Assembly: GCA_900315665.1 (NCBI GenBank)
Contig: OMZX01000031.1
Coordinates: 1 to 45,763, forward strand
Source of the DNA: an uncultured Eubacteriales bacterium
Lineage (GTDB): Bacteria; Bacillota; Clostridia; Lachnospirales; Lachnospiraceae
Direction of reading: 5' to 3'
Length of the DNA stretch: 45,763 nucleotides
Shown here in pieces: positions 12,314-45,763 of this stretch. Position 1 is the stretch's first letter. Every line of letters starts with the position of its first letter. The translations under genes and the position numbers were made by a program. The notes below the pieces were generated by a model. The model searched no databases. It worked only from the letters and a program-made list of their open reading frames with translations, and was not told the origin of the DNA.

Positions 12314-12393
12314 AGATACATCTGGCTTAGCCAGAAGATCCCTTATCGCGAAGCAGCTTCATACCGCTTACCAAAGCGTGATGCGAAACAGGC

Positions 12394-12435
12394 GTGGCGG
12401 GCAAGATACCATTTAAATGGCATCCTGCCCGCCAC
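12394..12435. repeat. Long GC-rich palindrome with CATTTAAATG core
   Basis: The arms GTGGCGGGCA and TGCCCGCCAC pair perfectly, inner GAT/ATC pairs follow with single-base mismatches, and the centre is CCATTTAAATGG. It lies between the convergent ends of azlD and the symporter fragment, where a two-way terminator is expected, but no T-run follows on either side. The hexamer CGGGCA / TGCCCG and the core CATTTAAATG recur in the palindrome at 45476-45539, so the two may be copies of one element. Confidence 0.7.
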
Positions 12436-12465
12436 ACCTGCTGTGTGACTCGTTTTTTAGATCGT

Positions 12466-16429: not shown

Positions 16430-18751
16430 TTACATACAAAGATTATTTTCCATAATATCGAAGCATATATGTCTCTCTTTTCCATTTTTGAACTGAATCG
16501 ATATCTCGCCCGTAATGCCTGTCCCGTACGGGTCGCTATAATTTATGCTCTTCACCGGGAAAAGCTCATCCTCTGTAAAGGGTTCTGCTGATTCCTTCGT
16601 GATGACCTGCGAGATGTAGAGATGCTGTTCGCTCGCATCATAATGCTTACAGAATTGGCCTTCGGCGAGAATCAGCTTCGACCTTTCAGAATCCGGATTC
16701 GTCCCGATAGAATCGATAACCCGCAGTGTATCAAAGCCGCTGTAGATCGTCATCGCCATCTGTTTTTCATGACCCATGTGATCCCTTCCTGTCAGGATGA
16801 TGGCATGTGCCCTTCGGATTTTCTTCTGTATCGTTTCTTTATTGGCAAGGTTTATCACATACGCCTTTATGAGCTTCTTCTGATCTTGTTCATCATTTAC
16901 ACCGGCTGTTTGTCCATGATCCGGGAAGCCATAGGATCCGAGGCGAAGCACACAAGGTCGCCGTAGAATCCGCATCTGATCCACTCGGAAGATACCATAA
17001 TCCACCGGGAAATCCGCAAGGTTCACCGCATCGATCCAGTGCGTCTCCGCATCCAGTCGGTAGTTGAAGAAGCCGCGGCGATACAGCACCCCATCCTTAT
17101 GCCCGTGGAGGTAAATTGCGTTTGGATAGGAAATCATCCGGCCTTCCTTCGTCTCCTGGATCAGCACATATTGCTGTGCTTCGATATCTTCAGCCGGTGC
17201 TGCCTCCCACGGATATTTCGTGTTATAGCAGAGCTTCCCATAGTTCCACATGCCCTCACGATCGGTGTGTGCTTTCACAACCTTCGCCGTGCGAAGGATC
17301 GTCTCTCCATTACGCCCATGATTTGTAAAATCGAGCGCCGGACCTGACAGATAGGTTTCTTTTATAGTTTTCTTTTCTTCATGCACAGATTTTGATTTTT
17401 CTTCCGTTTCCTTGCATTCATCCTTCAGTGATTTTTTATTCTTTTCATCTGTGGCTGTTTTGTTCGAATTTACAAGCTGTTCGCCTTTGCTACAAGCTGA
17501 AAGCCTGTCCCAATCCCCATTATTCTCCTTCGCTGTCCAGAAGGGATGCTCCTTCGGAAGATGAAGACATAGAAATGCCTTCCCAAGCCAGAGCGGTGAC
17601 TCCGCACAGGAATAGCTCTGGACGAGCGGCATGAACTGCCGATAAAATCCGAGTGTCGGCGCACCTTCATACAGAAAATCATCTCTTGTCAAAAACTGGA
17701 GCAGAGACCCTGATGCAATTCGCCGTGCACGTCCCGGATCTGCCTCTGCATGCCGGAGGAAAAAGTTTCCATCGAAGGCGCTGGTGGAAGCATTGCGATA
17801 GATGCAGCTTCTGCCCCACATGTTCGTGAAGCCGTCGCGATCAAACATATCCGGGAAGGTCTTCATGAGCGCGTTTGAATTTTCTTCGAAACGTGCGGCA
17901 AGCGCCGGTGCATACTGATAACCGTACCACTGACACCAGAGCGGTCCGTAGAAATTAAAGGCCCAGACCGAGTAATAATCGAAGCTCTGTCCGTCCCGAT
18001 ACCAGCCATCACCAGCATAGTAATTAAGGATCGCGGCGGCATGCTCGAGCATGATCGTATCATCGACCTTGTAGCCGTGCATCTTTAGAAACGCCATATC
18101 GAGCATATTGAACAGCCGCCAGTTCTGCGGTACCGTGCTCTCTCTTGCCCATTCTGAGAGAAATGCCGCGATCTGATCCTGCTCCGCCTTTGAATACCGT
18201 TCCCAGATTTCCTTTTCCGAAGCATACAGTCCGATCACGAGCGCGCAGGTTTCGACCGTCTGCTGGAAGGTATGACACGGATCCCTGTAGCCCTCTTGCT
18301 TTTCCGCGATGTCAAGCATCTCCTGATAGGAACCGACATAAAGCGCATCCGTAGAATCTGTCACGCGAAGGATCTGCCGGCTGTAGTAGTCACGAAGCCC
18401 TTTCCCCTCGATTTCCACCGCCGGTTCATTTTCAATGAGCACACTCGCGATAAAAAAGGAGCGCGTCAACCCCTCGAAGATCTCCGCCTTCCGCTCCCTC
18501 TCCTGCTGATCCTCCGGGGCTAGAAGATGCGGATAGGTCACCGCCGTATCCTGCCGCGGCAGCACGACCGGATCATCTATGGATTCTATATTCTGAAAGA
18601 TACCCCTAAGCAGATATTTCGCCGCATCGATCCAGCTCTCGCGCGTGAGTCCGGTATAGGGACTTAGCGAAAAATCCAGGTATGTCGGTTTCCATCTCTT
18701 TCCTAAAAGCTTTTCCTTTTCTGACTTTACTTCATTCGTTTCCATATCCAT
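16430..18751 (-). CDS. DUF2264 domain protein, probable carbohydrate-active enzyme
   Basis: A 773-residue cytosolic protein with no signal peptide. The N-terminal half (SWIDAAKYLLRGIFQNI..., NWRLFNMLDMAFLKMHGY, GDGWYRDGQSFDYYSVWAFNFYGPLWCQWYG, FMPLVQSYSCAESPLWLGKAFLCL) is the DUF2264 domain, an alpha/alpha-barrel-like fold found in sugar-degradation loci. The C-terminal part is beta-rich. Residues about 416-467 are a Lys/Glu/Ser-rich low-complexity stretch (nucleotides about 17351-17506), AT-richer than its flanks, interrupting the two halves. GAAGGA precedes the ATG. It is the last gene of the leftward sugar operon. The activity of this family is not settled to my knowledge; a role in uronic-acid oligosaccharide breakdown is inferred from the GH88 and GUS neighbours. 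Confidence 0.8.
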   Translation of the reverse strand: MDMETNEVKSEKEKLLGKRWKPTYLDFSLSPYTGLTRESWIDAAKYLLRGIFQNIESIDDPVVLPRQDTAVTYPHLLAPEDQQERERKAEIFEGLTRSFFIASVLIENEPAVEIEGKGLRDYYSRQILRVTDSTDALYVGSYQEMLDIAEKQEGYRDPCHTFQQTVETCALVIGLYASEKEIWERYSKAEQDQIAAFLSEWARESTVPQNWRLFNMLDMAFLKMHGYKVDDTIMLEHAAAILNYYAGDGWYRDGQSFDYYSVWAFNFYGPLWCQWYGYQYAPALAARFEENSNALMKTFPDMFDRDGFTNMWGRSCIYRNASTSAFDGNFFLRHAEADPGRARRIASGSLLQFLTRDDFLYEGAPTLGFYRQFMPLVQSYSCAESPLWLGKAFLCLHLPKEHPFWTAKENNGDWDRLSACSKGEQLVNSNKTATDEKNKKSLKDECKETEEKSKSVHEEKKTIKETYLSGPALDFTNHGRNGETILRTAKVVKAHTDREGMWNYGKLCYNTKYPWEAAPAEDIEAQQYVLIQETKEGRMISYPNAIYLHGHKDGVLYRRGFFNYRLDAETHWIDAVNLADFPVDYGIFRVDQMRILRRPCVLRLGSYGFPDHGQTAGVNDEQDQKKLIKAYVINLANKETIQKKIRRAHAIILTGRDHMGHEKQMAMTIYSGFDTLRVIDSIGTNPDSERSKLILAEGQFCKHYDASEQHLYISQVITKESAEPFTEDELFPVKSINYSDPYGTGITGEISIQFKNGKERHICFDIMENNLCM

Positions 18752-18894
18752 AAATCCTTCACTGCACCAAGGCTTTATATTGCACCTTTTTTATCCTGAA
18801 AATTTTTTCATATCATAAATGAGTCCTAAAAACCGAAAATGTACTTTTTATTACACATTTCCAGCTTCAAGAACTCATTACCTACAGGATGACT

Positions 18895-20934
18895 TCAATG
18901 TTTTGTTTCTTCACCTGATTTATATCCAAAATTCGGGATCTTCTCCCAGCGCTCCCGGAGATAATGCGCCGCAAGCTTCGGCCGGCGTTCCCTCGTGAAG
19001 ATACCCTTCCGGTTTCCATCCGCCCGATACACACCCTGGAGCGTGCCGAAATCTGCAAAGCACCAGCATTGTTCTCCGATGAAGAAGGGCCGCTTGTCAA
19101 ACACCTCCTCATCGAGCCGCCGATAATATTCCCGCTGAAACTCCTCCGTCCACATCTCAGCGACGGTCCCGTGCAACCCCGGCAGTGTATCCGCACCATA
19201 CTCCGTCACCATGACCGGCTTATGCTGCTTTTCCCAGAAATCAAGTTCGAGATTCCATGCATACACCGCACTGTCCAAATCCCCGGACAGATTGTACCAG
19301 CCATAATACCGGTTGATGCACACCACATCCATCGTCCTCGTCACGAGATCCCGCTCGTAGTTGTTCTGATTGCACACAAACGTCACCGGCCGCTTCTCGG
19401 GATCCAGCCCCTTCACATGATCATAGAGCGCTCTCCAGTATCGGAATGCCTCCTCCGGGTGGCTCTCCGTATCGGGTTCGTTGCCGAGGGACCACATGAC
19501 AACCGAAGGATGATTCTTATCCCGCTCGACGAGATCCTGCAGGACATCCTTATGATACTGCATAAGCTCCTCTGTGTACGGATTCTGCCCGCCTGCACTG
19601 ATTCCGACCGCCGGTGCCTCATCGATGATGACGATACCCTCCGCATCACACAGCCGGTACATCTCCTCTGCATACGGATAATGACTCGTCCGGAAGCTGT
19701 TCGCATGAAGCCAGTGGAACAGACTCACGTCCTTGACATTGAGAAGCTGATCCGTCCCGCGGCCATGCAGATAAAAATCCTCATGCTTCGCCGCGCCCTT
19801 GAAGTAGAAGGGCTTTCCATTGATGAGAAACCGCGTGCCCTCTACTCTGACCTCACGGATCCCGAAGGGCTCCGAATATTCATCCTCACCATACAGAACG
19901 CTTAGTCGATAAAGATATGGCGTCCCCGGATACGGCCACCATAGCTTCGGGGTTTTCAGCACAATGCTTCCTTCCGCTTCCGTCCCCTCTCCGACGACAG
20001 TTCCCTCTGCGTCGAGAACCTGTACCCGCAATTTGATGAAAGGTTCCACCTTAGCCTGCTTCAGTTCTTCGTCACCAGCTTCTCTTCTTTTTTCTCCAAA
20101 AAAGATCGTATCAACATCACTTTTGCTATGAGCATCTTCCTGTCCTATCGAAGACACATTGTCAAAAGTATTTTCCCTGGCAATTCCTTTTTCTTCCGCG
20201 TCCTTCACTTTCGACATGTTCTGAGACAGTACAGTACAAGGAGAATAGGCAATTACCTGATCTCCATCTGTCTTCACCAAATAATGCACGATGGCCTCAT
20301 CGTCCTGAAGCTCTGGCACGATGGAAACATCTGAAATGTAGGCCTTCGGCGTCGTATAGAGACGCACATGACGATTGAGCCCCGCGTAATTAAAGAAATC
20401 AAAATTTGGCAGGTTTACTTTCCCGCGATGCACCTTCGCCGCCTGCACCGCCGGCACCTGCGCATTGTCCGAGCCGAAGAAGGGAGTACCGCCCTCATTG
20501 CCACGCGGCAGCGTCGTGTGATCGATCGTATTATCTGCGGAAACCACAATTCGAAACGTATCTCCGGGCTTCACATAGTCCGTGATCTCTACTTCAAACG
20601 GCAGAAAACCGCCCCGATGCCGGATGATTTCCTGTCCGTCCAGATATACCACAGCATCATGCGTCACCGCATCAAACCGAAGCCACAGCCTCTGCCCCTT
20701 GAAGCCGAGTGGAACCGTCACCTCCCGCTCATAGTAGGCCTTCCCGCAGTGCGTCCGGTATTCCGGATCCTCCCGCTGGTCATTGTAAGAGCCCGGCACA
20801 TAAAGCCTTTCGACATCGCCCGGAAGCCCCCTCTCCCAGTGCTCCGTCTCTGCCTCACCATGATCCAGCCGAAAATTCCACATCCCGTCAAGATCCATGA
20901 CCATTCTAGATTTATTTTGAATCGGATATAACAT
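18895..20934 (-). CDS. uidA: GH2 beta-glucuronidase
   Basis: Retaining enzyme that removes beta-linked glucuronate; no signal peptide, so cytosolic. In the 679-residue protein the acid/base is E486 in WSLGNEPD and the nucleophile is E578 in TEYGAD, 92 residues apart as in E. coli GUS (413/504). The N-R-K triplet at 641-643 (DGNRKGIF) matches the NxK motif that binds the substrate carboxylate and separates true glucuronidases from galactosidases. The protein is 76 residues longer than E. coli GUS; about 65 of these form a polar, charged insertion at residues 229-296 (nucleotides about 20047-20250) in the immunoglobulin-like domain. GAGG lies six bases before the ATG at 20932-20934. It follows GH88 across the inverted-repeat element. 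Confidence 0.94.
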   Translation of the reverse strand: MLYPIQNKSRMVMDLDGMWNFRLDHGEAETEHWERGLPGDVERLYVPGSYNDQREDPEYRTHCGKAYYEREVTVPLGFKGQRLWLRFDAVTHDAVVYLDGQEIIRHRGGFLPFEVEITDYVKPGDTFRIVVSADNTIDHTTLPRGNEGGTPFFGSDNAQVPAVQAAKVHRGKVNLPNFDFFNYAGLNRHVRLYTTPKAYISDVSIVPELQDDEAIVHYLVKTDGDQVIAYSPCTVLSQNMSKVKDAEEKGIARENTFDNVSSIGQEDAHSKSDVDTIFFGEKRREAGDEELKQAKVEPFIKLRVQVLDAEGTVVGEGTEAEGSIVLKTPKLWWPYPGTPYLYRLSVLYGEDEYSEPFGIREVRVEGTRFLINGKPFYFKGAAKHEDFYLHGRGTDQLLNVKDVSLFHWLHANSFRTSHYPYAEEMYRLCDAEGIVIIDEAPAVGISAGGQNPYTEELMQYHKDVLQDLVERDKNHPSVVMWSLGNEPDTESHPEEAFRYWRALYDHVKGLDPEKRPVTFVCNQNNYERDLVTRTMDVVCINRYYGWYNLSGDLDSAVYAWNLELDFWEKQHKPVMVTEYGADTLPGLHGTVAEMWTEEFQREYYRRLDEEVFDKRPFFIGEQCWCFADFGTLQGVYRADGNRKGIFTRERRPKLAAHYLRERWEKIPNFGYKSGEETKH

Positions 20935-20965
20935 GCTATACCTCATTTCAGTATTTCATAACCTA

Positions 20966-21247
20966 CCTGAACGGCAGCTTAAATCAGTGCTTCTCCGGGC
21001 TCGCAGGGGCACCCGTACGAACAATAAAGCCGAAAGTCCCAGCTAGCCAGACATCACGAACAGGGTAAAAATCGAGGGCTCACCCTAGCCCTCGATTTTT
21101 AGGCCTGCTGAAGGAGAATTCATCAAGAATTCTCCGGAATCAGGCCGACCCAGTTCGGGATGGCTGGATAGCGCTTGGACTTTCGAGCCGTGAGCTAGGG
21201 TGCCCCTGCGAGCCCGGAGAAGCACTGATTCAGGCTGCTGTTCAGGT
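20966..21247. repeat. Giant imperfect inverted repeat with nested hairpins
   Basis: Almost the whole gap between GH88 and GUS folds on itself. The outer 50 bp (20966-21014 with 21198-21247) pair nearly perfectly; the exceptions are two G-U-type pairs and one mismatch. After an asymmetric internal loop, CGAAAGTCC (21031-21039) pairs with GGACTTTCG (21177-21185), and a further helix of about 24 positions with four mismatches joins 21044-21066 to 21146-21170. The apex holds two perfect hairpins: a terminator-like stem (21067-21100), and GGCCTG (21102-21107) with CAGGCC (21140-21145) enclosing GGAGAATTC/GAATTCTCC. The GH88 stop and the GUS ribosome site lie just outside. It could be a structured RNA, an mRNA-processing element or a MITE-like insertion; no known class is recognised. 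Confidence 0.85.
21067..21100. terminator. Perfect terminator-like hairpin at the apex of the inverted repeat
   Basis: AAAAATCGAGGGCT (21067-21080) and AGCCCTCGATTTTT (21087-21100) form a 14-bp perfect stem with a six-base loop. It ends in a T-run on both strands, so it has the form of a two-way intrinsic terminator. On the sugar-operon transcript it lies between GH88 and GUS and could lower GUS expression. Confidence 0.6.
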
Positions 21248-21256
21248 GGACTGAGA

Positions 21257-22528
21257 TTACCAATAAATCTGCCATGAAGGATTATACAGCCGGTTCAGGG
21301 CCTCCATCCAGTAGTAGTCACCCCAGATGACGCATTCGTCGACGCCTTCAGGAGTGCAGGTGTTGTAAGGGCTCTTTTTGCTGTAGGTGCCATGCAGGAG
21401 GAGGCCGTTTGACTCCTCTGGATCTGTCACACGACAAGCATCGTAGATGGCTTTCAGAAGCTTCCTGGCGATGCTGGTATAGTAGGCAGCCTCTTCTTGA
21501 GAGAGGTATTTTGCCATTTCGAGCATACCGCAGGCGGCGATGACCGCAGAGCTGGAATCTCTGGGCTCATCATCGCCATCACCGAAGGTAAGATCCCAGT
21601 ACGGTACGAGGTCCTTTGGCAGGTGATGCAGGAAATAGCCGGTCACGCGCTTAAAATACGAGAAATATTCCGGACGCTTCGTGTACTTATAGGCAACAGC
21701 TGTGCCGTATACGCCCCACGCCTGTCCTCTGGCCCAGGCAGAGCCATCCTTATAGCCCTGACAGGTGGCGCCATGGTCAAATTTACCCGTTTTCGGATTC
21801 ATAAAAACGGTATGCCAGGTGGAATCATCCTCCCGGATCACGTTGGCCATAGCCGTATGAATATGCTTTTCCGCGATATCCCGATATTTCGGATCACCGG
21901 TTTCACCCGTTGCCCAGTAAAGAAGCGGCAGGTTCAGAAGACAGTCGATGATGAACCGATAGTTCTCCGGCGCGCCCATCCTACCCCAGGCCTGGATAAA
22001 TTCACCGACCGGTTGAAAGCGGGAAATCAGCTGATCCGCTGCAAGAAGCGCTGCCTTCCGGCCGTTTTCATCATCCCTGAGTTTCCATGCTGCCACACAT
22101 GACGGACTATAGAGAAAGCCCATATCATGATGATCCACATCCGCCTTTCGTTCAATCCGGCTAAGAAAAGACAGCACCTGTCGCTCTGCCGCATGCGAGA
22201 AGAAGTCCTTTACATCCTGAAGCGTTCTCTCCGACGCTCCCTCCGGATTCTCCCGAAGCTTCCCGTCAGCCCCGATCCTCTCTCCGGCCACAAAGGAGGC
22301 ATTCTCATACGAAAGCCATGTCTCCCCTGTGAAAAATCCCGTCGTCCAGCCCTTATTCACCCCCGGCTTATAAAACCCATCGAAGCTCGCCGCCCCCGGA
22401 AAATTCCCCTTGAAGCTATAAATATTCCGCACCATCTGCTCCACCGAGAACTTTAACGCAGTCTTGATTTCTATATCACTGATTTCCGGATAGCTTAAAA
22501 GATCTGTTTCATTAATCCACTTCTGCAT
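21257..22528 (-). CDS. GH88 unsaturated glucuronyl hydrolase
   Basis: Hydrolyses the 4,5-unsaturated uronic acid that polysaccharide lyases leave at the non-reducing end of oligosaccharides, by hydrating the double bond. The 423-residue protein has no signal peptide. The motif HHDMGF supplies catalytic D135 and FIIDCLLNLPLL supplies D195; the 60-residue spacing fits D88/D149 of the Bacillus enzyme. KDGSAWARGQAWGVYG and RDSSSAVIAACGMLEMAKYL are further family motifs and favour GH88 over the related GH105. A hydrophilic stretch near residues 82-105 may be an insertion. GGAG lies seven bases before the ATG at 22526-22528. Together with the lyase-type gene at 29.4-32.0 kb it points to glycosaminoglycan-like substrates. 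Confidence 0.9.
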   Translation of the reverse strand: MQKWINETDLLSYPEISDIEIKTALKFSVEQMVRNIYSFKGNFPGAASFDGFYKPGVNKGWTTGFFTGETWLSYENASFVAGERIGADGKLRENPEGASERTLQDVKDFFSHAAERQVLSFLSRIERKADVDHHDMGFLYSPSCVAAWKLRDDENGRKAALLAADQLISRFQPVGEFIQAWGRMGAPENYRFIIDCLLNLPLLYWATGETGDPKYRDIAEKHIHTAMANVIREDDSTWHTVFMNPKTGKFDHGATCQGYKDGSAWARGQAWGVYGTAVAYKYTKRPEYFSYFKRVTGYFLHHLPKDLVPYWDLTFGDGDDEPRDSSSAVIAACGMLEMAKYLSQEEAAYYTSIARKLLKAIYDACRVTDPEESNGLLLHGTYSKKSPYNTCTPEGVDECVIWGDYYWMEALNRLYNPSWQIYW

Positions 22529-22626
22529 TCGATTCACTCCGAATTTTTAAATTGATAACACCAATAATACTATTTTTGATGACCTACATATAGTCACAAA
22601 TATAGATTTTGATATGCTTTAACAGC

Positions 22627-22656
22627 GCGTGGTGCCCGGTGACGGGCCGCCCACGC
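22627..22656 (-). terminator. GC-rich hairpin between permease and GH88
   Basis: GCGTGG (22627-22632) pairs with CCACGC (22651-22656) and GCCCG with CGGGC inside, around a GTGA loop. It follows the permease stop codon by about ten bases on the minus strand. There is no good T-run, so it may be a 3'-end stabiliser or weak attenuator separating transporter from enzyme genes. Confidence 0.45.
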
Positions 22657-22664
22657 GTCAGTCA

Positions 22665-23504
22665 TCATCCCTTCACACCGGTCGAAGCGATGCCGGCCAC
22701 GAAATATTTCTGGAGTGACAGAAAGACAATCAGCACCGGAATAAGGCTCAGCACCGAAGCCGCCATAATGAGCCCGTACTCCGCAGAATACTGCGAGATG
22801 AACATCTTTAAGCCAATCTGCAGTGTCTTTTTCTTTTCAGACGTGAGATAGATGAGCGGTCCGAGGAAATCATTCCAGGTATTCACAAACGTGAAGATCG
22901 TCAGCGTCGACAGCGCAGGCTTGCTAAGTGGAAGCATAATCTTCGCATAAATCTGATACTCATTCATCCCATCGATTCGCGCCGCCTCGCAGAGCGAATC
23001 CGGGATGCCTTCATAGAACTGCCGCATCATGAACACGCCGAAGGCTGTGAAGGCCTGGAGGATGATGATCGCAAGATGCGTATCTGCCAGCCCGATCTTC
23101 CGCATGAAAAGGAACTGCGGTACCATGTAGGACTGCCACGGAATCGCGATCGTCGCAACATAGGCAAGGAAAAGCGCATCTCTTCCTTTGAAGTGAAGTT
23201 TGGCAAAAGCGTAGGCTGCAAAGCTCGAAGTGAGAAGCTCAAGGAAGGTCACAATCAGTGTCAGCTTCACGGTATTTTTCGTGAAAATAGCGAGCGGAAT
23301 CTTGATCCAGATGTCGACATAATTCTGCCAGCGCGGCGTGAAGCCAACCCACTGATACGGAATCACGAAGATATCCTTGTTCGGCTTGAGCGACGCGGTG
23401 ACCATCCAGATGAAGGGCACCAGCATGATTGCCGCCAGTATGATGAGGAGAAGATACAGGAAAAATCTCCCGATTTTCTGATTTCTGGAAATGCTGCTGT
23501 TCAT
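22665..23504 (-). CDS. Carbohydrate ABC transporter permease, MalG type
   Basis: A 279-residue inner-membrane protein with six hydrophobic segments, matching the MalG/UgpE-like half of a family-1 carbohydrate importer. The cytoplasmic EAA loop reads YEGIPDSLCEAARIDGMNEYQIYAKIMLPLSKPAL, which docks the ATPase; the segment FVNTWNDFLGPLIYL is typical. The ATG at 23502-23504 is chosen for its AAGGAGGAG site; the frame's longer start overlaps the upstream gene. It follows the other permease by 10 bases. No ATPase gene is present, so the system probably uses a shared MsmX-like ATPase encoded elsewhere. Confidence 0.94.
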   Translation of the reverse strand: MNSSISRNQKIGRFFLYLLLIILAAIMLVPFIWMVTASLKPNKDIFVIPYQWVGFTPRWQNYVDIWIKIPLAIFTKNTVKLTLIVTFLELLTSSFAAYAFAKLHFKGRDALFLAYVATIAIPWQSYMVPQFLFMRKIGLADTHLAIIILQAFTAFGVFMMRQFYEGIPDSLCEAARIDGMNEYQIYAKIMLPLSKPALSTLTIFTFVNTWNDFLGPLIYLTSEKKKTLQIGLKMFISQYSAEYGLIMAASVLSLIPVLIVFLSLQKYFVAGIASTGVKG

Positions 23505-23514
23505 GTTCTCCTCC

Positions 23515-24423
23515 TTAGTCATTCGCATAGTTCTTTTCACCACGGAACTGGATCAGCGTGATGACGAGAACGATGACAAACAGAACCATCGATGCTGCCG
23601 AAGCGGTACCGAGCTTCCAGTTACGGAAGGCTTCCTCGTAGATGTAGTACACAAGCACGATCGCGGACTTGTTGACGACACCATTTGATCCGCCGGCCAG
23701 CATATAGACGATATCGTACACCTTGAAGCAGTTGATGGTCAGCATGATGACGACGAAGAAGGTCGTCGGCTTCAGCTGTGGCCAGGTCACATACAGAAAC
23801 TTCTTCCAGCCATTCGCGCCATCAAGCGACGCCGCCTCATAGAGCTCCTGATTGATGCCCTGCAGACCTGCAAGATAAATGACCATGTAGTAGCCCATGT
23901 TCTTCCAGATGGAGAACATGATGATCGTCAGCATGACAGTCGCCGGCGCTGCCGCCCACTTCATTGCCTTCATATGGAAGACATTGATGAGAATCTGGTT
24001 GACAATGCCTCCCTTTGCCGGCGTAAACAGCATGTTCCAGACAGCCGCTACAGCGACGAGACTGGCTACATACGGGAAGAACGTAATCGTCCGGAAGAAG
24101 TTCCGCCCCTTGATCTTCTGGTTAAGAAGAATCGCCAGCGCGAGTGCCATGATGAGCGTCAGCGGTACTGTGAAAACCGCATATACGGCAGTATTTTTGA
24201 GCGCTGCAAGAAACCGGTCATCTGTGAAGATATTCTGAAAATTTCCGAAGCCGACAAACTTCCATGGATTATTACCATCCCACTCCATGAACGCCATGAT
24301 CATCGCGAGGATGATCGGGCCCAGCGTAAAGATGGCGAAGCCGATGAAGTTCGGGGCAATGAACGAATAGGCGACCAGTGCCTGCTGGCGTTTTCTCTTA
24401 GCTGCATTCATTTCTGCTGTCAT
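23515..24423 (-). CDS. Carbohydrate ABC transporter permease, MalF/UgpA type
   Basis: A 302-residue membrane protein with six hydrophobic segments. It has the compact UgpA-like form, lacking the long periplasmic loop of MalF. The EAA loop reads YLAGLQGINQELYEAASLDGANGWKKFLYVTWPQLKPTTFF. The ATG at 24421-24423 follows a GAAAGGAAA site; the six upstream codons of the open frame are unlikely to be used. It forms the transmembrane pore together with the next gene. A terminator-like hairpin separates it from the binding-protein gene, so it should be made at lower level than that protein. Confidence 0.94.
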   Translation of the reverse strand: MTAEMNAAKRKRQQALVAYSFIAPNFIGFAIFTLGPIILAMIMAFMEWDGNNPWKFVGFGNFQNIFTDDRFLAALKNTAVYAVFTVPLTLIMALALAILLNQKIKGRNFFRTITFFPYVASLVAVAAVWNMLFTPAKGGIVNQILINVFHMKAMKWAAAPATVMLTIIMFSIWKNMGYYMVIYLAGLQGINQELYEAASLDGANGWKKFLYVTWPQLKPTTFFVVIMLTINCFKVYDIVYMLAGGSNGVVNKSAIVLVYYIYEEAFRNWKLGTASAASMVLFVIVLVITLIQFRGEKNYAND

Positions 24424-24490
24424 GGTTCTGTTTCCTTTCAAACATACGAAGGTGATTTTTTTCGCATTTCGTGAGATTCTGCAAATATCT

Positions 24491-24533
24491 CTTTAAAAAA
24501 CAGGGCTTCCACAAGCCTTTTGTGAAAGCCCCG
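24491..24533 (-). terminator. Intra-operon terminator between binding protein and permeases
   Basis: On the minus strand GGGGCTTTCAC pairs with GTGGAAGCCC with one mismatch (24502-24533), and TTTTTT (24495-24500) follows directly. It sits between the binding-protein stop codon and the first permease. Partial read-through here would give the usual excess of binding protein over pore subunits. Confidence 0.75.
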
Positions 24534-24612
24534 CTATAAATCTGTTTTGATCGATCGAATCAAACTTACGAACAAAGGCTAAATGTCCTTCACATTTGAA
24601 GCGATCTGATTT

Positions 24613-25992
24613 TTACTTCTGAAGAATAGCCTGCACACCTTCATTCATGTTCTTGATACCCGTGTCCACATCCTCGGACTCTGTCATGATGAGGTCATGC
24701 TGCTCATTAAGAACTGTCTCGATCTCGGCAGACTTATCATTTGCCGGCATCTCGAGATAGGTATGTGTCGTAACGAGTGCATCCTTGGATGTCGTGTCAT
24801 CAGCCGGGAAGCCATCCATCGATGCGATGGAGGAAACGATCTTATCGTTTGACATCGCCGGAATATTTCCTGTACCGGCCATCACAGTAGCGCCCTCTTC
24901 ACCGGTCACAAACTTGATGAAATCCCAGGCTGCATCCTTATGCGGTGCGCTGGTCGGCAGTGCCAGACATGTGATCGTAGCGAGTGTAGAGCCCGGCTCT
25001 ACGCCCTCAGCGTGCGGATACTTGACGATGCCCCAGTTCGTGCAGTCTGTGTACTCACCGGACTTGATCTTCGCGATCAGTGTGGACAGGAACCAGGTAC
25101 CCATGTTCATCATACCGATGTTGCCCTGTGCAAACGCATCAGAATAGTGAAGTCCCTGTGTCTTCAGGGTTGCATAGTCCATGCAGACGCCGTCATCCTG
25201 CTGCTTGATGACCATATCGTAGTAAGGCTTCGCAAAATCATAATTGCCATCAACGGCAGTTGCCTTGCCATCGAGGATACCATCAAGCATAACCGTGGAT
25301 CTCCAGGTGTGATAATGTGCACCATAAACCTCGGATCCAGCTGTCGTATCGGTGATCTTTCTTGCGAGCTCATCATACTGCTCCCAGGTCATGTCATTGG
25401 TCGGATAATCAACGCCTGCCTTATCAAAGACATCCTTGTTATAGTAGAGAACCCAGAAATCCGAACGGAACGGAAGTTCATAGAGCTTATCCGAGATCTT
25501 AACCTGATCGGTAATCCCCTTGTACTGAGAAAGATCGATACCGTCAGCGGCGATCCTGTCATCCAGCGGTTCAAGCACGCCCTTGTTGACAAGCGTCATA
25601 TAACCCGGCACATCCTTGATCGTCACGACATCGAAGTCGGAGCCGGAGCCCGAAAGCTGTGTACCAAGCACGGTCGAATAGTCCGTAGATCCAAGATCTA
25701 CCATCTCAATGCTTACGTTCGGGTGCTCCTTCGTATAGGCATCGATGAGCGGCTGATAATAAACCGTCGCGTCCTTATCCCAGAGTGCCCACTTGAGCGT
25801 GACGGCTTCGTCACCACCTGCCGCTGCCTCTGTGGCCGCTGCCGTTGTCTCAGCTGCAGCGGCTGCTGTTGTCTCAGCCTTTGCTGCTTCTGTCGCTGCC
25901 GCTGTCGTGCTCTGTGAGCTGCTGCTACCGCAGGCTGCGAGGGATGCTACCATCGTCGCTGCCATGACGGAACTGATGATTCTCTTTTTCAT
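24613..25992 (-). CDS. Extracellular sugar-binding lipoprotein of the uronate-sugar importer
   Basis: A 459-residue family-1 solute-binding protein. The signal peptide MKKRIISSVMAATMVASLAAC ends in a lipobox with a lipidated cysteine at residue 21. A linker of repeated TTAAATEA-like units follows to about residue 60, then the binding fold (VTLKWALWDKDATVYYQPLIDAYTKEHPNVSIEMVDLGSTDY... and TWEQYDELARKITDTTAG). The ATG at 25990-25992 is preferred because GGGAGG lies five bases upstream; the open frame continues 48 codons further but without signal-peptide sense. It is the first gene of the leftward operon and divergent from the sensor kinase. The ligand is inferred to be an oligosaccharide containing uronic acid, from the enzymes that follow. 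Confidence 0.93.
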   Translation of the reverse strand: MKKRIISSVMAATMVASLAACGSSSSQSTTAAATEAAKAETTAAAAAETTAAATEAAAGGDEAVTLKWALWDKDATVYYQPLIDAYTKEHPNVSIEMVDLGSTDYSTVLGTQLSGSGSDFDVVTIKDVPGYMTLVNKGVLEPLDDRIAADGIDLSQYKGITDQVKISDKLYELPFRSDFWVLYYNKDVFDKAGVDYPTNDMTWEQYDELARKITDTTAGSEVYGAHYHTWRSTVMLDGILDGKATAVDGNYDFAKPYYDMVIKQQDDGVCMDYATLKTQGLHYSDAFAQGNIGMMNMGTWFLSTLIAKIKSGEYTDCTNWGIVKYPHAEGVEPGSTLATITCLALPTSAPHKDAAWDFIKFVTGEEGATVMAGTGNIPAMSNDKIVSSIASMDGFPADDTTSKDALVTTHTYLEMPANDKSAEIETVLNEQHDLIMTESEDVDTGIKNMNEGVQAILQK

Positions 25993-26199
25993 GTTAACCT
26001 CCCATATCGCGGAACCCGTTTTACCATTTGCTTTTCGCGGCATTCCGCATTTGCTATTTGATTGTCTATATTGTAAAATTTCTTTGCTTGTGAATAAATG
26101 CAGTTTTCGCGGTGGATTTTGAATTTTTTTATTCATTTTTTACAGAAAATGTGTATTTTTTAGAAATTTTTGCTTTATTTTTAGAATTTGGCGGTTGAT
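25993..26199. promoter_or_regulatory. Divergent control region between importer and sensor-kinase genes
   Basis: About 200 AT-rich bases lie between the two start codons. On the minus strand TTCACA, 18 bases, then TATAGA gives a plausible promoter for the binding-protein gene. GC-rich half-sites GCGGAA and TTCCGC (within 26004-26050) flank the proximal part and could be the response-regulator site. The boxes are imperfect and the assignment is tentative. Confidence 0.35.
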
Positions 26200-28041
26200 A
26201 TGATTCAATCTTATAAAAAACACCTCTCACTCCGGGTCCTCATCGCGGTATGGTCCCTCGGCTTTGCAGCTGTCCTCGCACTCATCGTCGTGATCGTCAG
26301 CTTCTTTTCCGTCCGCAGTGCGCTTACGAGGCTCCAGGCAGAGTCTGTGCGGAATAATCTGCAGCTTGTCGGTTCCGATCTCGATGCTTCTCTCTCGGAC
26401 ATTGAGTCCTTTGCCAACTGGTGTACGATCGATCCGAATATCGCGACCTACCTCACGACTCTAAAGAAGCAGACGGCAGAGGCAGCTTCCGACGATACGG
26501 ATCTCCGGAAGCAGATGCTTTCGACCTGGGAGCATTTTCGTAATGAATACAACGCCGTCGGTAAAACAGAATTTATCAATCGTGCGGTTATCTCTACACC
26601 GGATGGCGCACAGTACCTCCAGACCGTGCAGAATAACGCACTTGGCTTCCGGACTGACTTTACAAAGTCGATCATGCAGGCGTCCTTCTTTGATCCCTTG
26701 ATCGAAGCGCCATCCTATCTCTGGATCGGGCTCGTGGAAAATCCGGTCAGCACCCATACGACTGCCGAGATCCTGCCGGTCGTGCGCCCGATCTACAGCT
26801 CTTCCTCCTCGGAGGTGATCGGCTTCGTATATCTGGAGATCTCACCGGAGCTTTTCACAAGCTGCTTGTCCGGTCTTACCATCCCGGAGGATGCTGAAGT
26901 TTTCCTCTCGATCGGAGATGGGCATAGCTATGCTTATCAGAGCAATGCCTCTGCCGTCAGTCTGACAGAAGCCCCGCTGCCTGATGGCGTCATCGATGTT
27001 CCGCTGAAGATCGATGGCTTTCATCTCTACATGATTCCGTCGAAGGCAGAGATCCGGCAGAGACTTAACTTTTATTATCGGATCATCGCGCTGATCGCGT
27101 TCTTCATCCTCGTGGGCGGTGTGTTCATCATGCACTCGCTGCATGTAAGCATTACGACACCGCTCAATGGACTTTTAAGAAAGATCTCGCTCGTGTCACA
27201 GGGTGATTTCTCGCGGGATCCGTCGATCGAGTCGGATACGGAGTTTGGTTCGATCGGCAAGGGCATCAATATGCTGTCTGAAAATGTGGAGTCGCTCATG
27301 AACCGTCGTGTCGAGGACGAGCGGAAGAAGCAGGCGCTCGAATATGAGATCCTGCAGTCGCAGATCAATCCGCATTTTATCTATAACACGCTGAATACCA
27401 TCAAATGGATGGCGACGATTCAGGGCTCCGATGGCATCGCGGATATGTCGACGGCGCTTTCACGGCTTCTTCGAAACATTGCAAAGAACAAGCAGAATCT
27501 GATTCCGCTTCGGGATGAAAAGGCACTGGTCGATGACTATTTCACGATCATGAAATACCGCTACGGCGGGACGATCACGCTGCAGTATGTCATCGATGAT
27601 CCGGAGACGCTTTCGTGCTATGTGAACCGCTTTTCGATCCAGCCGATCCTTGAGAACGCCATCTTCCACGGGATCGAGCCGAAGGGCAGCGCAGGAAGCA
27701 TTGTCATCCGATTCTCCTTCGAAGACGTGGAGGGCTTTTCACCGGCTGCATGTCTCCTCATCCGTGTGCGGGACGACGGCGTCGGCATGGATCAGGCGAT
27801 GATTGATCGTGTCATGAAGGGTGGCGATGAGGATGCGCATGATTTCTTCCGCCATGTCGGTGTGTCCAATGTCAACCAGCGGATCAAATATACCTTCGGC
27901 ACGCAGTATGGCATCTCGATTCACTCGGAGATCGGGACCTTTACCGAGATGCAGTTTACACTCCCGGTGGTAAAATCACTGCCGGAGGGGACACCGGAAA
28001 CGCTCGGAAGTGTCATGGCGAATGTAGAACATGATGCATGA
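26200..28041 (+). CDS. Sensor histidine kinase, YesM type
   Basis: A 613-residue membrane-bound kinase, numbered from the ATG at 26200. It has an N-terminal membrane segment (about residues 13-37), a large extracellular sensing domain (about 38-285), a second membrane segment (about 287-310) and a HAMP linker (TTPLNGLLRKISLVSQGDFSRD). The phosphoacceptor region EYEILQSQINPHFIYNTLNTIKWMA carries the histidine in NPHFIYN of the His_kinase/YesM class, and the ATPase domain shows QPILENAIFHGI and RVRDDGVGMD. Such kinases sense sugars with or without a binding protein and control adjacent sugar operons. The ATG has only a weak GGCGG site; a TTG at 26188 is the alternative. The response-regulator gene follows by 113 bases. 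Confidence 0.92.
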   Translation: MIQSYKKHLSLRVLIAVWSLGFAAVLALIVVIVSFFSVRSALTRLQAESVRNNLQLVGSDLDASLSDIESFANWCTIDPNIATYLTTLKKQTAEAASDDTDLRKQMLSTWEHFRNEYNAVGKTEFINRAVISTPDGAQYLQTVQNNALGFRTDFTKSIMQASFFDPLIEAPSYLWIGLVENPVSTHTTAEILPVVRPIYSSSSSEVIGFVYLEISPELFTSCLSGLTIPEDAEVFLSIGDGHSYAYQSNASAVSLTEAPLPDGVIDVPLKIDGFHLYMIPSKAEIRQRLNFYYRIIALIAFFILVGGVFIMHSLHVSITTPLNGLLRKISLVSQGDFSRDPSIESDTEFGSIGKGINMLSENVESLMNRRVEDERKKQALEYEILQSQINPHFIYNTLNTIKWMATIQGSDGIADMSTALSRLLRNIAKNKQNLIPLRDEKALVDDYFTIMKYRYGGTITLQYVIDDPETLSCYVNRFSIQPILENAIFHGIEPKGSAGSIVIRFSFEDVEGFSPAACLLIRVRDDGVGMDQAMIDRVMKGGDEDAHDFFRHVGVSNVNQRIKYTFGTQYGISIHSEIGTFTEMQFTLPVVKSLPEGTPETLGSVMANVEHDA

Positions 28042-28154
28042 AAGCCTCTTGTTCATCTTACTTAAGAACGATCTGCTGTACAGATCAACGGAGCCTTAAA
28101 AGTCGTTCCATCCGAGTGCCTGGATGAAGCTTTACTATTAAAATGGAGATCTTG

Positions 28155-29423
28155 ATGAACTATACAATTTTGATTGTCGATGATGAACCACTGGTACAGG
28201 TCGGGCTTCGCTCGATGCTGTCGAAGGGGTTTGAAAATCTGGAGATTGTCGGGGCAGCAGGAAATGGCAGAGATGCGCTCTCCCTGATCGACGAGAAGCA
28301 TCCGGTTATCGTCATTGCCGATATCAAGATGCCGATCATGACGGGCCTTGAGCTCATCCGGGCTTCGAGAGAAAAATTCGGTGAGCTTCCGGTCTTTATC
28401 ATGCTGACAGCCTATGAGGAATTTGATATGGCAAGAGAAGCGCTCTCTTTACAGGCGGTCGATTATCTCGTGAAGATCGATCTGAATCAGGATGCGCTGC
28501 ATCAATCGATTGATAAGGCGATCCGTCGGGTCGATCAGCTAAAGCCGAATGAAGCACCATCCGCGCAGAAGTCGGCAAATCTCGAGCTGTTTCAACAGAA
28601 ATTTATGCTTCGTCTCCTGAATCACATGTTTAAGGATGAGGAGACGCCGCGGATGTTTCGATGCGCTTTACGGAAGACCGGTATCTCGTGGTGGTCGCAG
28701 ATATCGGAAGCTCTGTTCGCAGCGATGACACATCGCTCAGCCAGGAAAAAAGGCTGACGCTCTATAACTCTTGTCTTGACATGTCGAAGGAGATCCTTGC
28801 GAAGTATTTCCCGTTTTATATTGTGTCCAACGATCCGAGTCATTTTACGATCATCGCTGCTTTTTCAGAGGACACCCCGATTGCCGAAATCAGTGACCGG
28901 TCTGAACGCGCGTGATATGATCCTCAATTATTTTAATATTTCTGTCTACTTCGGCATCGGTACGGCGGTTTCTCATCCTATGGATATCGCAGCCTCCTTT
29001 GACGAAGCGAAGACAGCGATGGAGGCCGCGGATGATCATCAGCCGATCCGGCTTTTCAGCCACATTGTCGGGGCGAACCGTCGTTCCGGAAAGGACAAGC
29101 TAATCGCGTCGATCCAACAGTACATCGATGAGAATCTCGACGGGCATATGCAGCTGAATGAGATCGCGGAGAAATTCGGACTGTCGCCAGCGTATCTTAG
29201 TGTGCTGTTTAAGAAAAATATGGAGATCGGATTCTCGGAGTATGTTTATACAAAGAAGATTGAGAAAGCGAAGGAGATGCTGCTGTCGGATGACATGAAG
29301 ATCTATGAGGTGGCGGATGCACTGGGGTTTGAGTCGGCGTACTACTTCTCGAAGGTGTTTAAGCGGGTTACCGGAGAGTCACCGCGGGAGTTTATCCAGT
29401 CGAAAACTGGTGCACAGGGGTAA
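28155..29423 (+). pseudogene. Response regulator, YesN type, broken by two frameshifts
   Basis: The product should be a receiver plus AraC-type DNA-binding regulator paired with the upstream kinase. The receiver domain is intact (ILIVDDEPLVQVGLRSML, phosphoacceptor aspartate in VIVIADIKMPIMTG, MLTAYEEFDMA). The C-terminal double helix-turn-helix is intact too (LNEIAEKFGLSPAYLSVLFKK, YEVADALGFESAYYFSKVFKRVTGESP). Between about 28651 and 28910 the sense continues only in another frame (MRFTEDRYLVVVADIGSS ... FTIIAAFSED). One missing G at 28651-28652 and one missing CG in the CGCGCG at 28907-28912 would restore a single frame. As it stands, translation stops at 28757. Either the gene is dead or the sequence has two errors. 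The start at 28155 follows GGAG by six bases. Confidence 0.85.
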
Positions 29424-31971
29424 GTGGCTGTGTTGCTCCGAATATGGTTTCTAATTTGTTGCCTAATGGCAATAGAAGTAGTCTATAACAATCATGTTTC
29501 CAGGTTTCACCTAAACGTGCATCGGTGATGGGGATTGGTTCAATCATCGCTTTTTGTACGCCTTTTATTAAGATGTTCTGGTCCCCGACTGATATAGTGC
29601 ATATATTCCGGCATTCTTCTTCAACGATTTCTGGCTTATTGTAGGTCATTAATGTGAAGACGGGGCGTAGGTCTGCGTCCCAATGGTCTTCGATCGTGAT
29701 GCTTTGATTTTTCTGGAAAATACAGGTTCTTTGCATGCTGCGGATCTGCGGGGTTTCGTAGGCAGGCGCGATGTCCATAGTGAAGCAGAGTATTTCCGGA
29801 TCTTGCTTTGTGTCTAGCGAGACATCTATTGCTTTTGCGGTGTCGCCTGGTTTTTCCATGGTGATACCTGCTTTCTCTAGTGCCGCTACAGTTGTTTCTC
29901 GCTCTTGGAATAGACTTCTTGTCATAGCTTCAGCATCTATATCTTTTGCATCCATAGTCATGGTCGAAGTTCCACAAACGTTCCTGCACACTGTACGAGT
30001 GAACTTTTCTGCAGTACCCATCAGTTCTTCTTTGCGCGAAGCAAAGAGCTTTTGCAGGGCTTCGTCGGTAAGGAAGGTCGGAAGGTTATGGTATCGAGAC
30101 TGCATGGTCCAGATGTCGTAGCGGTCCTTCGAGAAGGTTTTTCTCGTGTAGGTGCCGACGCCGAGGTCGATGATGAGGGGCTTTCCGTCGCGGTACAGGG
30201 TGAAGGAGCCTACGTCGTTATGGTTGTGGCTGTCTGCATTATCGCCGGCTTTGATGGCGAGGGTGAAGTGGTTGTCGCGCGTGACGAGGAGGCCGGTGCT
30301 TTCGAAGTAGCTGTCCGCCGGCTGGATGGATTCTTCTGTCCGCTGCCATAACGTTTCTTCTTTTTGTCGATCTGGCATTCCATTTTTCAGTGACAAACTG
30401 GTCTCTGCCTTTTGCACAGATTTCTTCACTTGTGTGGATGCTGCCAGCATTTCTTTGTAGGCAAAGATCTGGAGGATATGGTACCAGAGGTTTTCTTCCA
30501 TCGGCAATAGGCGTTCTGTCATGCTTTCTTCTTCGAGATCCTTTGCCGCCAATGCCTCCATCGTACGGCTTCCGAGGCGTTTTCCAAACAAATATTCTCT
30601 GGCTGTTCGCCTACCGGCGCGTGGAGAGCAATCTGAAAAATTGATATAGTAATTGTCACCGGCTACCATTTTCACGATGTATTCACCGATGCTTCTGATT
30701 TTCGTGTTTTGGAACAGTTCTTCTATTTTACTTTCTTTTCCTACTTGAGCCTTGTAAACTCCAGCTTGAATCTTTATTTCGTTAAATGGCGCTTTGCCAC
30801 CGAAGATCTCATAGAAAAGTTCCAGACAACCGAGCATCGTGAGGCCGGCGTGGCTATAGTACTGTGCTCCTTCGTCACAGCAGCCATCAAGTGCATATTC
30901 GTTGAGAAAATAGTCGATGGATTTTGCCGCCTGTCGAAGGATCTGAAGTTTTTCTTCTTTTGACAAAATGGTATGCGTGGTCGGCCAGTCAGGCGGATCG
31001 ACATGTCCATCCGGCTGGAGAAATTTCTCTGCTATCACGGGTGATGCCTTCGCCGCGTTGCTCCATTTCATCTTTATTTCTTCAAGTTCCAAAGGTTCGC
31101 TCGCTTCAGTTGAGAACAATTTCTCCTTTTCGTTGCTTTCCTTCCAAACATCTGATGCTTTGTTCTGCTGTGTTATATCAGAAACAGCTTTCTGCAAAGT
31201 AGACGTCTGTACTTTTCTGCCTTTCCCGTCATCTCGTGTGAAAACAGAAAGTAGAATGTTCTGTGTGATCCAGGGAGTCCAGTTGCACATTGGCTCTAAG
31301 CCGTTTCCCATCCACCAAAAGTGAAAATGAAGATACGGGAAAAAGATCCTGTCATAGAGGGCATTATCCAGTGTGATCTCTATGAACGGGCTGATGGCTT
31401 TAAGCGGTTCTCTCAAAAGATATTCTGCGACGCCGAGAATGGCGGCTGTCTCGGCTGCGAACAGGTCGACGACCGGTCGTGTCGTGTCCGGCACAGAAAA
31501 CTGCTTTGTATCACGGATGTAGGCATTGTGCGCAGGAAGCTGCCACGCAGTCTCCCCTAAGATGAGGTAGATACCGTCGAGGATCTTCGGAAGAAATCTT
31601 CCTTTGTTTTCGACGCATTCTGCCAGCGTAAGTTTCGTAAGCATCCGACGGCGGGTGAAATACTTGTCTTCAAAGAGACTGCGATTACCATCCTTGGAAA
31701 ATCGGAGGTAATCGGACATTAGGATGACCGGCCACGGCTCCGCAAGTGCCTTCTCCCCATCCGCAATGATCGCTTCCCGAAGCTCTACGGGAAGCGCACC
31801 CCACTCGGCTCTTTCACAGATCGTCGGAACTGAAGCAAGATAATCTGACCATATATACATATTTTCTGATTTCTGAAAAGCAGATGCATTACTCTTTTCT
31901 GTTTCCTGCTGTACCATCCGCCTTGTTTTCAAAATCTGTTCGATGCAATCCTCTACCAACGTCTCATGCAT
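29392..31971 (-). CDS. Heparinase II/III-type polysaccharide lyase
   Basis: An 859-residue protein with no signal peptide. The N-terminal 500 residues are an alpha/alpha-barrel with DGCCDEGAQYYSHAGLTMLGCLELFYEIFGG (about 362-392), which carries the tyrosine region of the active site. From about 555 on comes the heparinase II/III beta-sandwich with GDNADSHNHNDVGSFTLYRDGKPLIIDLG, including H582 and H584. Such lyases cleave uronic-acid polysaccharides by beta-elimination, leaving the unsaturated ends that GH88 removes. Two hydrophilic, AT-richer stretches interrupt it (about 248-312 and 511-552). Without a secretion signal it probably acts on imported oligosaccharides. Its ATG overlaps the preceding gene by eight bases, and its 3' end overlaps the response-regulator gene antisense by 32 bases. 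The exact substrate cannot be read from sequence. Confidence 0.88.
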   Translation of the reverse strand: MHETLVEDCIEQILKTRRMVQQETEKSNASAFQKSENMYIWSDYLASVPTICERAEWGALPVELREAIIADGEKALAEPWPVILMSDYLRFSKDGNRSLFEDKYFTRRRMLTKLTLAECVENKGRFLPKILDGIYLILGETAWQLPAHNAYIRDTKQFSVPDTTRPVVDLFAAETAAILGVAEYLLREPLKAISPFIEITLDNALYDRIFFPYLHFHFWWMGNGLEPMCNWTPWITQNILLSVFTRDDGKGRKVQTSTLQKAVSDITQQNKASDVWKESNEKEKLFSTEASEPLELEEIKMKWSNAAKASPVIAEKFLQPDGHVDPPDWPTTHTILSKEEKLQILRQAAKSIDYFLNEYALDGCCDEGAQYYSHAGLTMLGCLELFYEIFGGKAPFNEIKIQAGVYKAQVGKESKIEELFQNTKIRSIGEYIVKMVAGDNYYINFSDCSPRAGRRTAREYLFGKRLGSRTMEALAAKDLEEESMTERLLPMEENLWYHILQIFAYKEMLAASTQVKKSVQKAETSLSLKNGMPDRQKEETLWQRTEESIQPADSYFESTGLLVTRDNHFTLAIKAGDNADSHNHNDVGSFTLYRDGKPLIIDLGVGTYTRKTFSKDRYDIWTMQSRYHNLPTFLTDEALQKLFASRKEELMGTAEKFTRTVCRNVCGTSTMTMDAKDIDAEAMTRSLFQERETTVAALEKAGITMEKPGDTAKAIDVSLDTKQDPEILCFTMDIAPAYETPQIRSMQRTCIFQKNQSITIEDHWDADLRPVFTLMTYNKPEIVEEECRNICTISVGDQNILIKGVQKAMIEPIPITDARLGETWKHDCYRLLLLPLGNKLETIFGATQPLTPVHQFSTG

Positions 31972-45475: not shown

Positions 45476-45539
45476 GCGAAGCAGGAGTGCCCCGGGCAGT
45501 GACATTTAAATGTCGCTGCCCGGGGCACTCCTGCTTCGC
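45476..45539. repeat. 64-bp palindrome with CATTTAAATG core
   Basis: A 24-bp left arm (45476-45499, beginning GCGAAGCAGG and ending CCGGGCAG) pairs perfectly with 45516-45539. One mismatched pair lies inside, and the centre GACATTTAAATGTC is itself palindromic. It lies between the MATE gene and the convergent rRNA terminator. TCTTTTA follows on the plus strand, so it may end the MATE transcript. Core and flanking CGGGCA/TGCCCG are shared with the palindrome at 12394-12435. Confidence 0.8.
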
Positions 45540-45637: not shown

Positions 45638-45763
45638 ATTGGATAAGCCCTCGACCTATTAGTAACCATCACCTGAGTGCCTCACGGCACTTACAGCCTG
45701 GCCCTATCAACCTTGTACTCTTCAAGGGGTCTTACTCTTGCGATGGGATATCTCATCTTGAGG
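45638..45763 (-). rRNA. 23S ribosomal RNA, 3' end
   Basis: Read on the minus strand, the segment has the conserved 23S 3'-terminal sequence: GATGAGATATCCC near the window edge, AAGTAAGACCCC-like AGAGTAAGACCCC, GTTGATAGGCC-like GTTGATAGGGCCAGG, and ends with GGTCGAGGGCTTATCC, the counterpart of the GGTCGAGGACTTAACC end in Bacillus. Only the last 126 or so bases are in the window. No 5S gene follows before the terminator. Confidence 0.93.

Follow-up and report, generated by a model that had tools for sequence, protein, structure and literature searches.

Our favoured reading, held with moderate confidence, is that the 283-base palindrome at 20965–21247 of the window (the whole stretch of 45,763 nucleotides analysed here) belongs to a family of non-coding DNA palindromes of REP/MITE-like type that is scattered through the genome and probably mobile. 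In this reading, DNA copying templated by the hairpin makes the two arms of a copy identical or keeps them so. The shared core and ends, together with the copy number, suggest a mobile palindrome that is non-autonomous. The outer stems differ in sequence from copy to copy and yet are nearly perfectly self-paired within each copy.

Structure of the element in the window

The element (core-A family, copy on contig C17, core in + orientation) is delimited by its arms, its fold, and its copies elsewhere in the genome. It lies in the intergenic gap 20947–21256, between a glycoside hydrolase family 2 gene (18895–20946, − strand; Pfam PF02836/PF02837), called beta-glucuronidase in the preliminary description, and a glycoside hydrolase family 88 gene (21257–22537, − strand; Pfam PF07470), the end of which is 9 bases from the element. 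Both genes are in a cluster at 16430–31971 that also encodes a DUF2264 protein, an ABC transporter with solute-binding protein, a histidine kinase, and a heparinase II/III-like protein; the cluster looks like a glycosaminoglycan utilisation locus.

The left (5') arm of the outer stem occupies 20965–21014 (+ strand); its inner 10–13 bases or so form the conserved edge of the core, and the remainder is copy-specific. The right (3') arm occupies 21198–21247 (+ strand) and is complementary to the left arm at 47 of 50 positions (94%), with 183 nt between the arms. The conserved core A (21015–21197, + strand), defined by the alignment of 33 copies and by the fold, comprises an internal loop, an inner stem with spaced mismatches, and two apical hairpins. 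In the sequence, hairpin 1 (21066–21101, no strand assigned) has 15 perfect pairs with an A-run and a T-run within the stem. It is terminator-like on both strands and could mediate bidirectional termination. In the fold, hairpin 2 and its basal stem (21102–21146, no strand assigned) leave some bases unpaired.

The + strand folds at −208.7 kcal/mol, compared with −105.05 ± 5.59 kcal/mol for 100 dinucleotide shuffles (z −18.5). The − strand, which is the strand of the operon mRNA, folds as well (−212.1 kcal/mol, z −20.1), and either strand is about 100 kcal/mol below its shuffles. The inverted-repeat structure noticed in the preliminary description is therefore real and much as described, with a few details to adjust. 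Nearly all of 320 intergenic bases had been said to fold; the single structure stands, but the gap is 310 bases long and the element takes up 283 of them. The internal loop, the interrupted stem, and a perfect hairpin 1 are as described, but hairpin 2, also called perfect, has some unpaired bases. The exceptions in the outer stem, described as G-U-type, are two G·T and one A·C on the + strand, so that a single wobble is left in the operon mRNA. The statement that the element belongs to no known RNA class agrees with Rfam 15, which yields just two chance-level matches.

Copies in the genome and their outer stems

A search for copies in the element's own genome (2,452,783 bases, 121 contigs), suggested in the preliminary description, was run and finds many: core A or part of it is present at at least 52 places. 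The element query gives 50 matching pieces and a second core query 61 (best 40 candidates scored in each case); matching pieces are not copies, and the pieces of both queries merge to 46 places in the fetched DNA, some of them partial. A palindrome scan of 543 kb adds 5 places absent from the similarity searches, probably explained by the limited number of candidates scored in those searches, and a search for the tail pattern described below adds one truncated copy (C35). The 543-kb sample is about 22% of the genome and was partly picked for containing copies. Arms were analysed in 48 copies: no arms could be extracted at 3 of the first 51 core-A places, and the count excludes the truncated C35 copy.

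In a longest-ORF reading of the surroundings, 31 of the 48 copies are between co-directional genes, 9 between convergent and 2 between divergent genes, with 6 unassigned. A gene end is within 35 bp in 30 of the 48 copies. None is inside an ORF longer than 135 aa; ORFs of 71–135 aa overlap 12 copies, and we take these ORFs as spurious. A role specific to the beta-glucuronidase gene, as first proposed, is unlikely, because the same element is found at some fifty other places.

At E ≤ 0.001, the core is absent from all 16 other genomes of the genus (best candidates scored). In the six congeners in which both flanks of the junction between the family 88 and family 2 genes are matched, the intergenic sequence is, by eye, short or unrelated and lacks the element. 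Thus the element arrived in this lineage or was lost outside it. Among 391 other genomes of the order (at most the best two candidates per genome), we obtained one 38-base match, which we take as chance. A core pattern search returned two loci in genome contigs and one in viral contigs; we took the viral match, the sequence of which was inspected, and the two genomic ones, judged from their hosts alone, for chance as well. An origin of the arms as spacer-like pieces of phage was considered and rejected: the whole window element has no match in the phage and plasmid collections, and two other arms are unmatched in phages.

The ungapped outer stems of the 48 copies are 25–71 bp long (at least 25 bp was required), and with gaps some reach 112 bp. 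Within copies, 2379 of 2489 arm positions are paired (95.6%). Nine stems, 25–59 bp long, are free of mismatches, compared with 5.6 expected at a uniform rate, and the mismatch rate is minimal (0.02) at 10–30 bp from the inner end of the stem. When 44 arms are searched against the 543-kb sample at E ≤ 0.01, all match themselves and their partners, and 41 match nothing else.

The copy-specific character of the arms holds even for closely related cores. The comparison by core identity covers 37 copies, no two of which have the same arms. Mean arm identity is 0.56 for 26 pairs with a core identity of about 0.95 (0.47 after shuffling) and 0.51 for 167 pairs with a core identity of about 0.80 (0.44 after shuffling). 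By position, in the 23 copies with a comparable core edge (253 pairs), identity is 0.75–1.00 at positions 1–10 from the core edge, falls to 0.58, 0.56, and 0.45 at positions 11–13, and is 0.27 at position 14, where chance gives 0.29. Among pairs whose cores are at least 94% identical (18 pairs), the values are 0.78–1.00 over the first 9 positions and 0.22 at position 14. Residual identity above chance is seen at positions 17–19 (0.40–0.41) and 41–45 (0.29–0.47), so the arms show a slight resemblance. Outside the innermost 11 bases, their G+C content is 67%, compared with 49% in the genome sample, and the 5' arm is purine-rich.

An artefact of the library or the assembly (fold-back chimeras) was considered, since the assembly is fragmented into 121 contigs, with some copies at or near contig ends (e.g. 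C40:1 and C89:121). However, many copies are well inside contigs, the core is conserved, the arms have decayed (4.4% mismatched), and related elements exist in another genome (core B, below). We therefore regard such an artefact as hardly credible.

DNA-level and RNA-level readings of the stems

A stem that stays perfectly paired while its sequence changes is usually read as a strong sign of a functional RNA. Under selection for an RNA from one strand, G·U pairs on that strand should far outnumber A·C mismatches. The arm mismatches of the 48 copies are 48 G·T, 45 A·C, and 17 others (binomial p 0.84). When they are oriented by the flanking co-directional genes, 39 are wobbles on the transcript, 26 are the opposite type, and 13 are others, a non-significant lean (p 0.14). 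These strand-neutral mismatches suggest that the stems are not kept up by RNA selection on one strand and speak for DNA copying from arm to arm. The preliminary description had taken the mostly single mismatches as the mark of a maintained RNA fold, an argument that the counts do not bear out. The perfect stems fit copying to perfection followed by decay through ordinary mutation. A unique, riboswitch-like RNA is ruled out by the copy number together with the strand-neutral mismatches.

The core helices lean somewhat to G·T. In the alignment of 33 copies, the inner core helices covary, with 23 of 50 predicted pairs showing at least two Watson–Crick types; the consensus from these copies contains doubtful pairs and copies with a nested insert. 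For the core helices judged reliable, the ratio of G·T to A·C is 13:5 (p 0.10) or 15:5 (p 0.04). For all predicted core pairs it is 48:5, a count that includes doubtful pairs and derives from a prediction that allowed G·U on that strand. The core may thus be under some weaker constraint at the RNA level. All four combinations occur for several pairs of core modules, which indicates that cores recombine between copies; the module classes were set by simple patterns, and several copies are unclassified. Another repeat (..GCGCTTGCGCGGGGAGGCTTCGGGATGCCTTAGCGGCGAGCGCG..) is located within the apical part of some core-A copies (C52:155814, C76:66561, C62:50670, and C84:8416) and is also found beside C62:11170.

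A structured RNA acting as an mRNA 3'-end stabiliser, a terminator, or an RNase III site, selected on the transcript and maintained by compensatory changes, would account for the placement just behind gene ends, the rarity in divergent gaps, the strong folds, the covarying inner helices, and the slight wobble excess both by transcript and in the core helices. We nevertheless consider it improbable for the element as a whole, because the arms have no G·U preference for the strand of the core (48:45, and 3:4 in core B), because the core has the same orientation as the genes at 17 of the 31 co-directional sites and the opposite orientation at 14, and because 9 of 48 stems are perfect over 25–59 bp.

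In the reading we favour, copies would multiply non-autonomously by way of a single strand folded into a hairpin, and the arms would be matched at the DNA level by a polymerase template switch within the hairpin (quasipalindrome correction), with one arm rewritten from the other. Alternatively, repair acting on an extruded cruciform might match them. Template switching within hairpins has been proposed to make and maintain perfect stems (PMC8794818), and perfect palindromes with arms evolving in concert are reported from nematomorph mitochondria, with arm-to-arm copying proposed (PMC6649704). Ordinary gene conversion among copies would keep the cores alike; it must end where homology ends, which would account for the boundary at the core edge. 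Most of the tolerated copies would be those placed immediately after a stop codon, a position in which the hairpin may act at most as a bidirectional terminator or an mRNA 3'-end block.

The unlike arms of copies with 94–97% identical cores are explained by slow concerted drift only if the cores are strongly converted, and arms made new at each insertion explain them equally well. In that alternative, each multiplication gives a new stem, fold-back synthesis copies it into the other arm, and later mutation only decays the pairing. It accounts for arm identity close to chance, starting some 13 bases out from the edge of cores that are at least 94% identical, for a self-divergence of the arms (4.4% mismatch) close to the divergence between the closest cores (3–5%), for 41 of 44 arms unmatched elsewhere in 22% of the genome, and for an arm composition different from that of the genome; the boundary at the core edge is explained equally well. 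On the other hand, no enzyme that would do so was identified, reverse transcriptase domains are lacking, gene conversion may inflate the similarity of the cores and thereby remove the clock argument, and the weak residual identity between arms does not fit. We hold this alternative to be a real but clearly minority prospect. Retro-copying of the group II or retron type was rejected, as no reverse transcriptase domain (RVT_1) is found in the genome. The more specific proposal of a mobile hairpin class that makes a fresh long self-complementary stem for each copy, untemplated or from a template that is not kept, and copies it into the opposite arm, with every insertion thereby barcoded individually while constant ends and core are propagated, is more speculative again. 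If the arms are indeed new in each copy, the element would represent a novel mode of multiplication for mobile DNA.

Some fifty paralogues with covarying outer stems that lack a G·U signature make a natural test of DNA-level arm copying against RNA selection, and covariation searches in such genomes can mistake mobile palindromes for RNAs.

Ends, second core, and relation to known elements

A tail of the form GT[C/A]CG (GTCCGCATAGCCA-like) is directly behind the 3' arm in 21 of the 48 copies, and one copy has the tail on the other side alone; the left flank ends in CA in 24 of the 48. No constant tail is recognisable at the window copy. Allowing one mismatch at most, the genome contains 22 instances of the fuller tail GTCCGCATAGCCA and 6 of a reversed control. 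With one more base the counts are 20 and 2 (control) here, and 0–2 in each of the 16 congeners (controls 0–6). In the one copy with the tail on the left alone (C65:2759–3069), the core and arms look inverted with respect to the ends, an arrangement that template switching would produce, as would recombination between the arms.

An inverted duplication of host flank at insertion is disfavoured by the constant tail outside the arms and by the six congener sites without the element (by eye). Several sites of the fuller tail are core-less hairpins with loops (also C76:18473 and C62:45051), a few of them near REP size, and a few are in other sequence. Such hairpins, together with arms that are independent of core identity, would be expected if the core were a separate element that had landed in the middle of pre-existing palindromes of diverse sequence. 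However, the core-less tailed hairpins have loops and no loop remnant separates arm from core, mismatches are rarest on the junction side (10–30 bp from the inner end), and insertion leaves unexplained why the stems are unique and perfect. We judge core insertion unlikely, marginally more so than selection of the whole element as a structured RNA.

A second core family, B, is found at 10 places. At 8 of the 10 the scan gives an ungapped stem of 23–45 bp, by eye each of its own sequence; at the other 2 it gives none. In these stems 238 of 246 positions are paired, and the exceptions are 4 A·C, 3 G·T, and 1 other. At least three core-B places carry a tail of the core-A kind. If each copy does receive a fresh stem, a single such system would carry both cores as cargo, these being unrelated but sharing the tail. 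The core-B loci (L185–L195: C52:145009, C21:14542, C108:2163, C76:51823, and others) have motifs such as GCTTAGCGA and GAGCTTAGC. A sequence pattern for core B recovered just 4 copies and missed those of G046. That genome, from a different genus in the family, has core-B relatives at 5 places in 236 kb (contig C1; L197, L199, and L204–L211). The outer stems of these relatives vary too, but are imperfect (by eye). One core-B element (C12:3420–3500) is near an RNase P RNA gene (RF00010, 302.5 bits; L193 1644–1986, − strand). In a palindrome scan of 400 kb from four congeners, 12 places were found, none of which has the core-A tail adjoining (by eye).

The search for a mobilising transposase covered Y1 transposases and gave two candidates. 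No target-site duplication is seen by eye in the flanks, and at the window site the congeners are too diverged to resolve one. No autonomous partner with the same ends is present in the 543 kb for loops up to 5 kb; the 4 long-loop arm pairs found there join separate repeats. Y1 transposases are present; the candidates are a RAYT-like gene (C11) and an IS200-like gene (C26). The RAYT-like gene scores 75.2 bits against a cutoff of 80, and its 3-kb locus contains just one palindrome, with 8-bp arms. RAYT relatives (33–45% identity) occur in 5 of the 16 congeners, which lack the core, and thus the presence of a RAYT alone does not explain the element. The IS200-like gene adjoins one copy, but its ends are unlike those of the element (by eye). 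Both genes are candidates, and neither is tied to the core-A family.

Correia/NEMIS and RUP are examples of MITEs, in which the terminal repeats are the conserved part. The elements described here resemble MITEs in being small, non-coding, intergenic, and bounded by inverted repeats with strong hairpins. Unlike in MITEs, the terminal repeats are the variable part. No target duplication or parent IS was found in the flanks and the 543 kb examined. Of the three proposals in the preliminary description, a MITE-type mobile element comes nearest, although neither near-identity of the copies nor a target-site duplication is seen. ERIC, bcr1, and Nezha are named as MITEs in PMC3733652.

According to the same paper (PMC3733652), REP/REPIN elements have stems of 8–9 bp (CGTC type) or 5–13 bp (GTAG type), with alternative complementary stem residues in both; CGTC-type REPs are reported without a dedicated transposase, and some REP families are species-specific. 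The present elements share with REP/REPIN elements their palindromic form, the many copies scattered outside genes, a constant unpaired tag next to the stem, and a usual place behind coding sequences (PMC3733652). The GTCCGCATAGCCA tail reads CGTC on leaving the stem and ends in CCA, both on the same side of the stem. A REP palindrome is 20–40 bp long, whereas the present element has 283 bp, ungapped stems of 25–71 bp unrelated between copies, and a core of about 200 nt. In addition, the RAYT-like gene is not flanked by core-A repeats, unlike in REP/REPIN systems.

The likeness to Rfam RNA families, namely a large folded element with covariation, ends at the score: no family reaches its gathering score on a core-A copy or on the core-B elements searched. 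The coding palindromes of Nematomorpha mitochondria (PMC6649704) and template-switch hairpins (PMC8794818) share with the present elements identical arms whose sequence differs between homologous positions. In the accessible portions of these two papers they are not described as a dispersed, core-sharing repeat family, whereas here about 50 paralogues are in one bacterium. In the literature covered, which lies mostly outside the subscription journals, we came across no repeat family described as combining a constant core and constant ends with perfect stems specific to each copy.

Other palindromes are present in the same genome. Two loop-free, near-perfect palindromes in the window (45476–45539 and 12389–12440) are both centred on CATTTAAATG and have different arms. 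Short-loop palindromes with GCATT/AATG-like centres are found at C52:49866, C52:52180, C52:149959, C76:910, and C51:22092. A further repeat family consists of hairpins of one common sequence (TGACACCGGGGACG.TTCTC..) at C100:245, C22:10222, C62:4253, and C76:61528. Finally, positions 45650–45763 of the window (− strand) resemble, by eye, the 3' end of a 23S rRNA gene, which is the likely reason that the contig ends at 45763.
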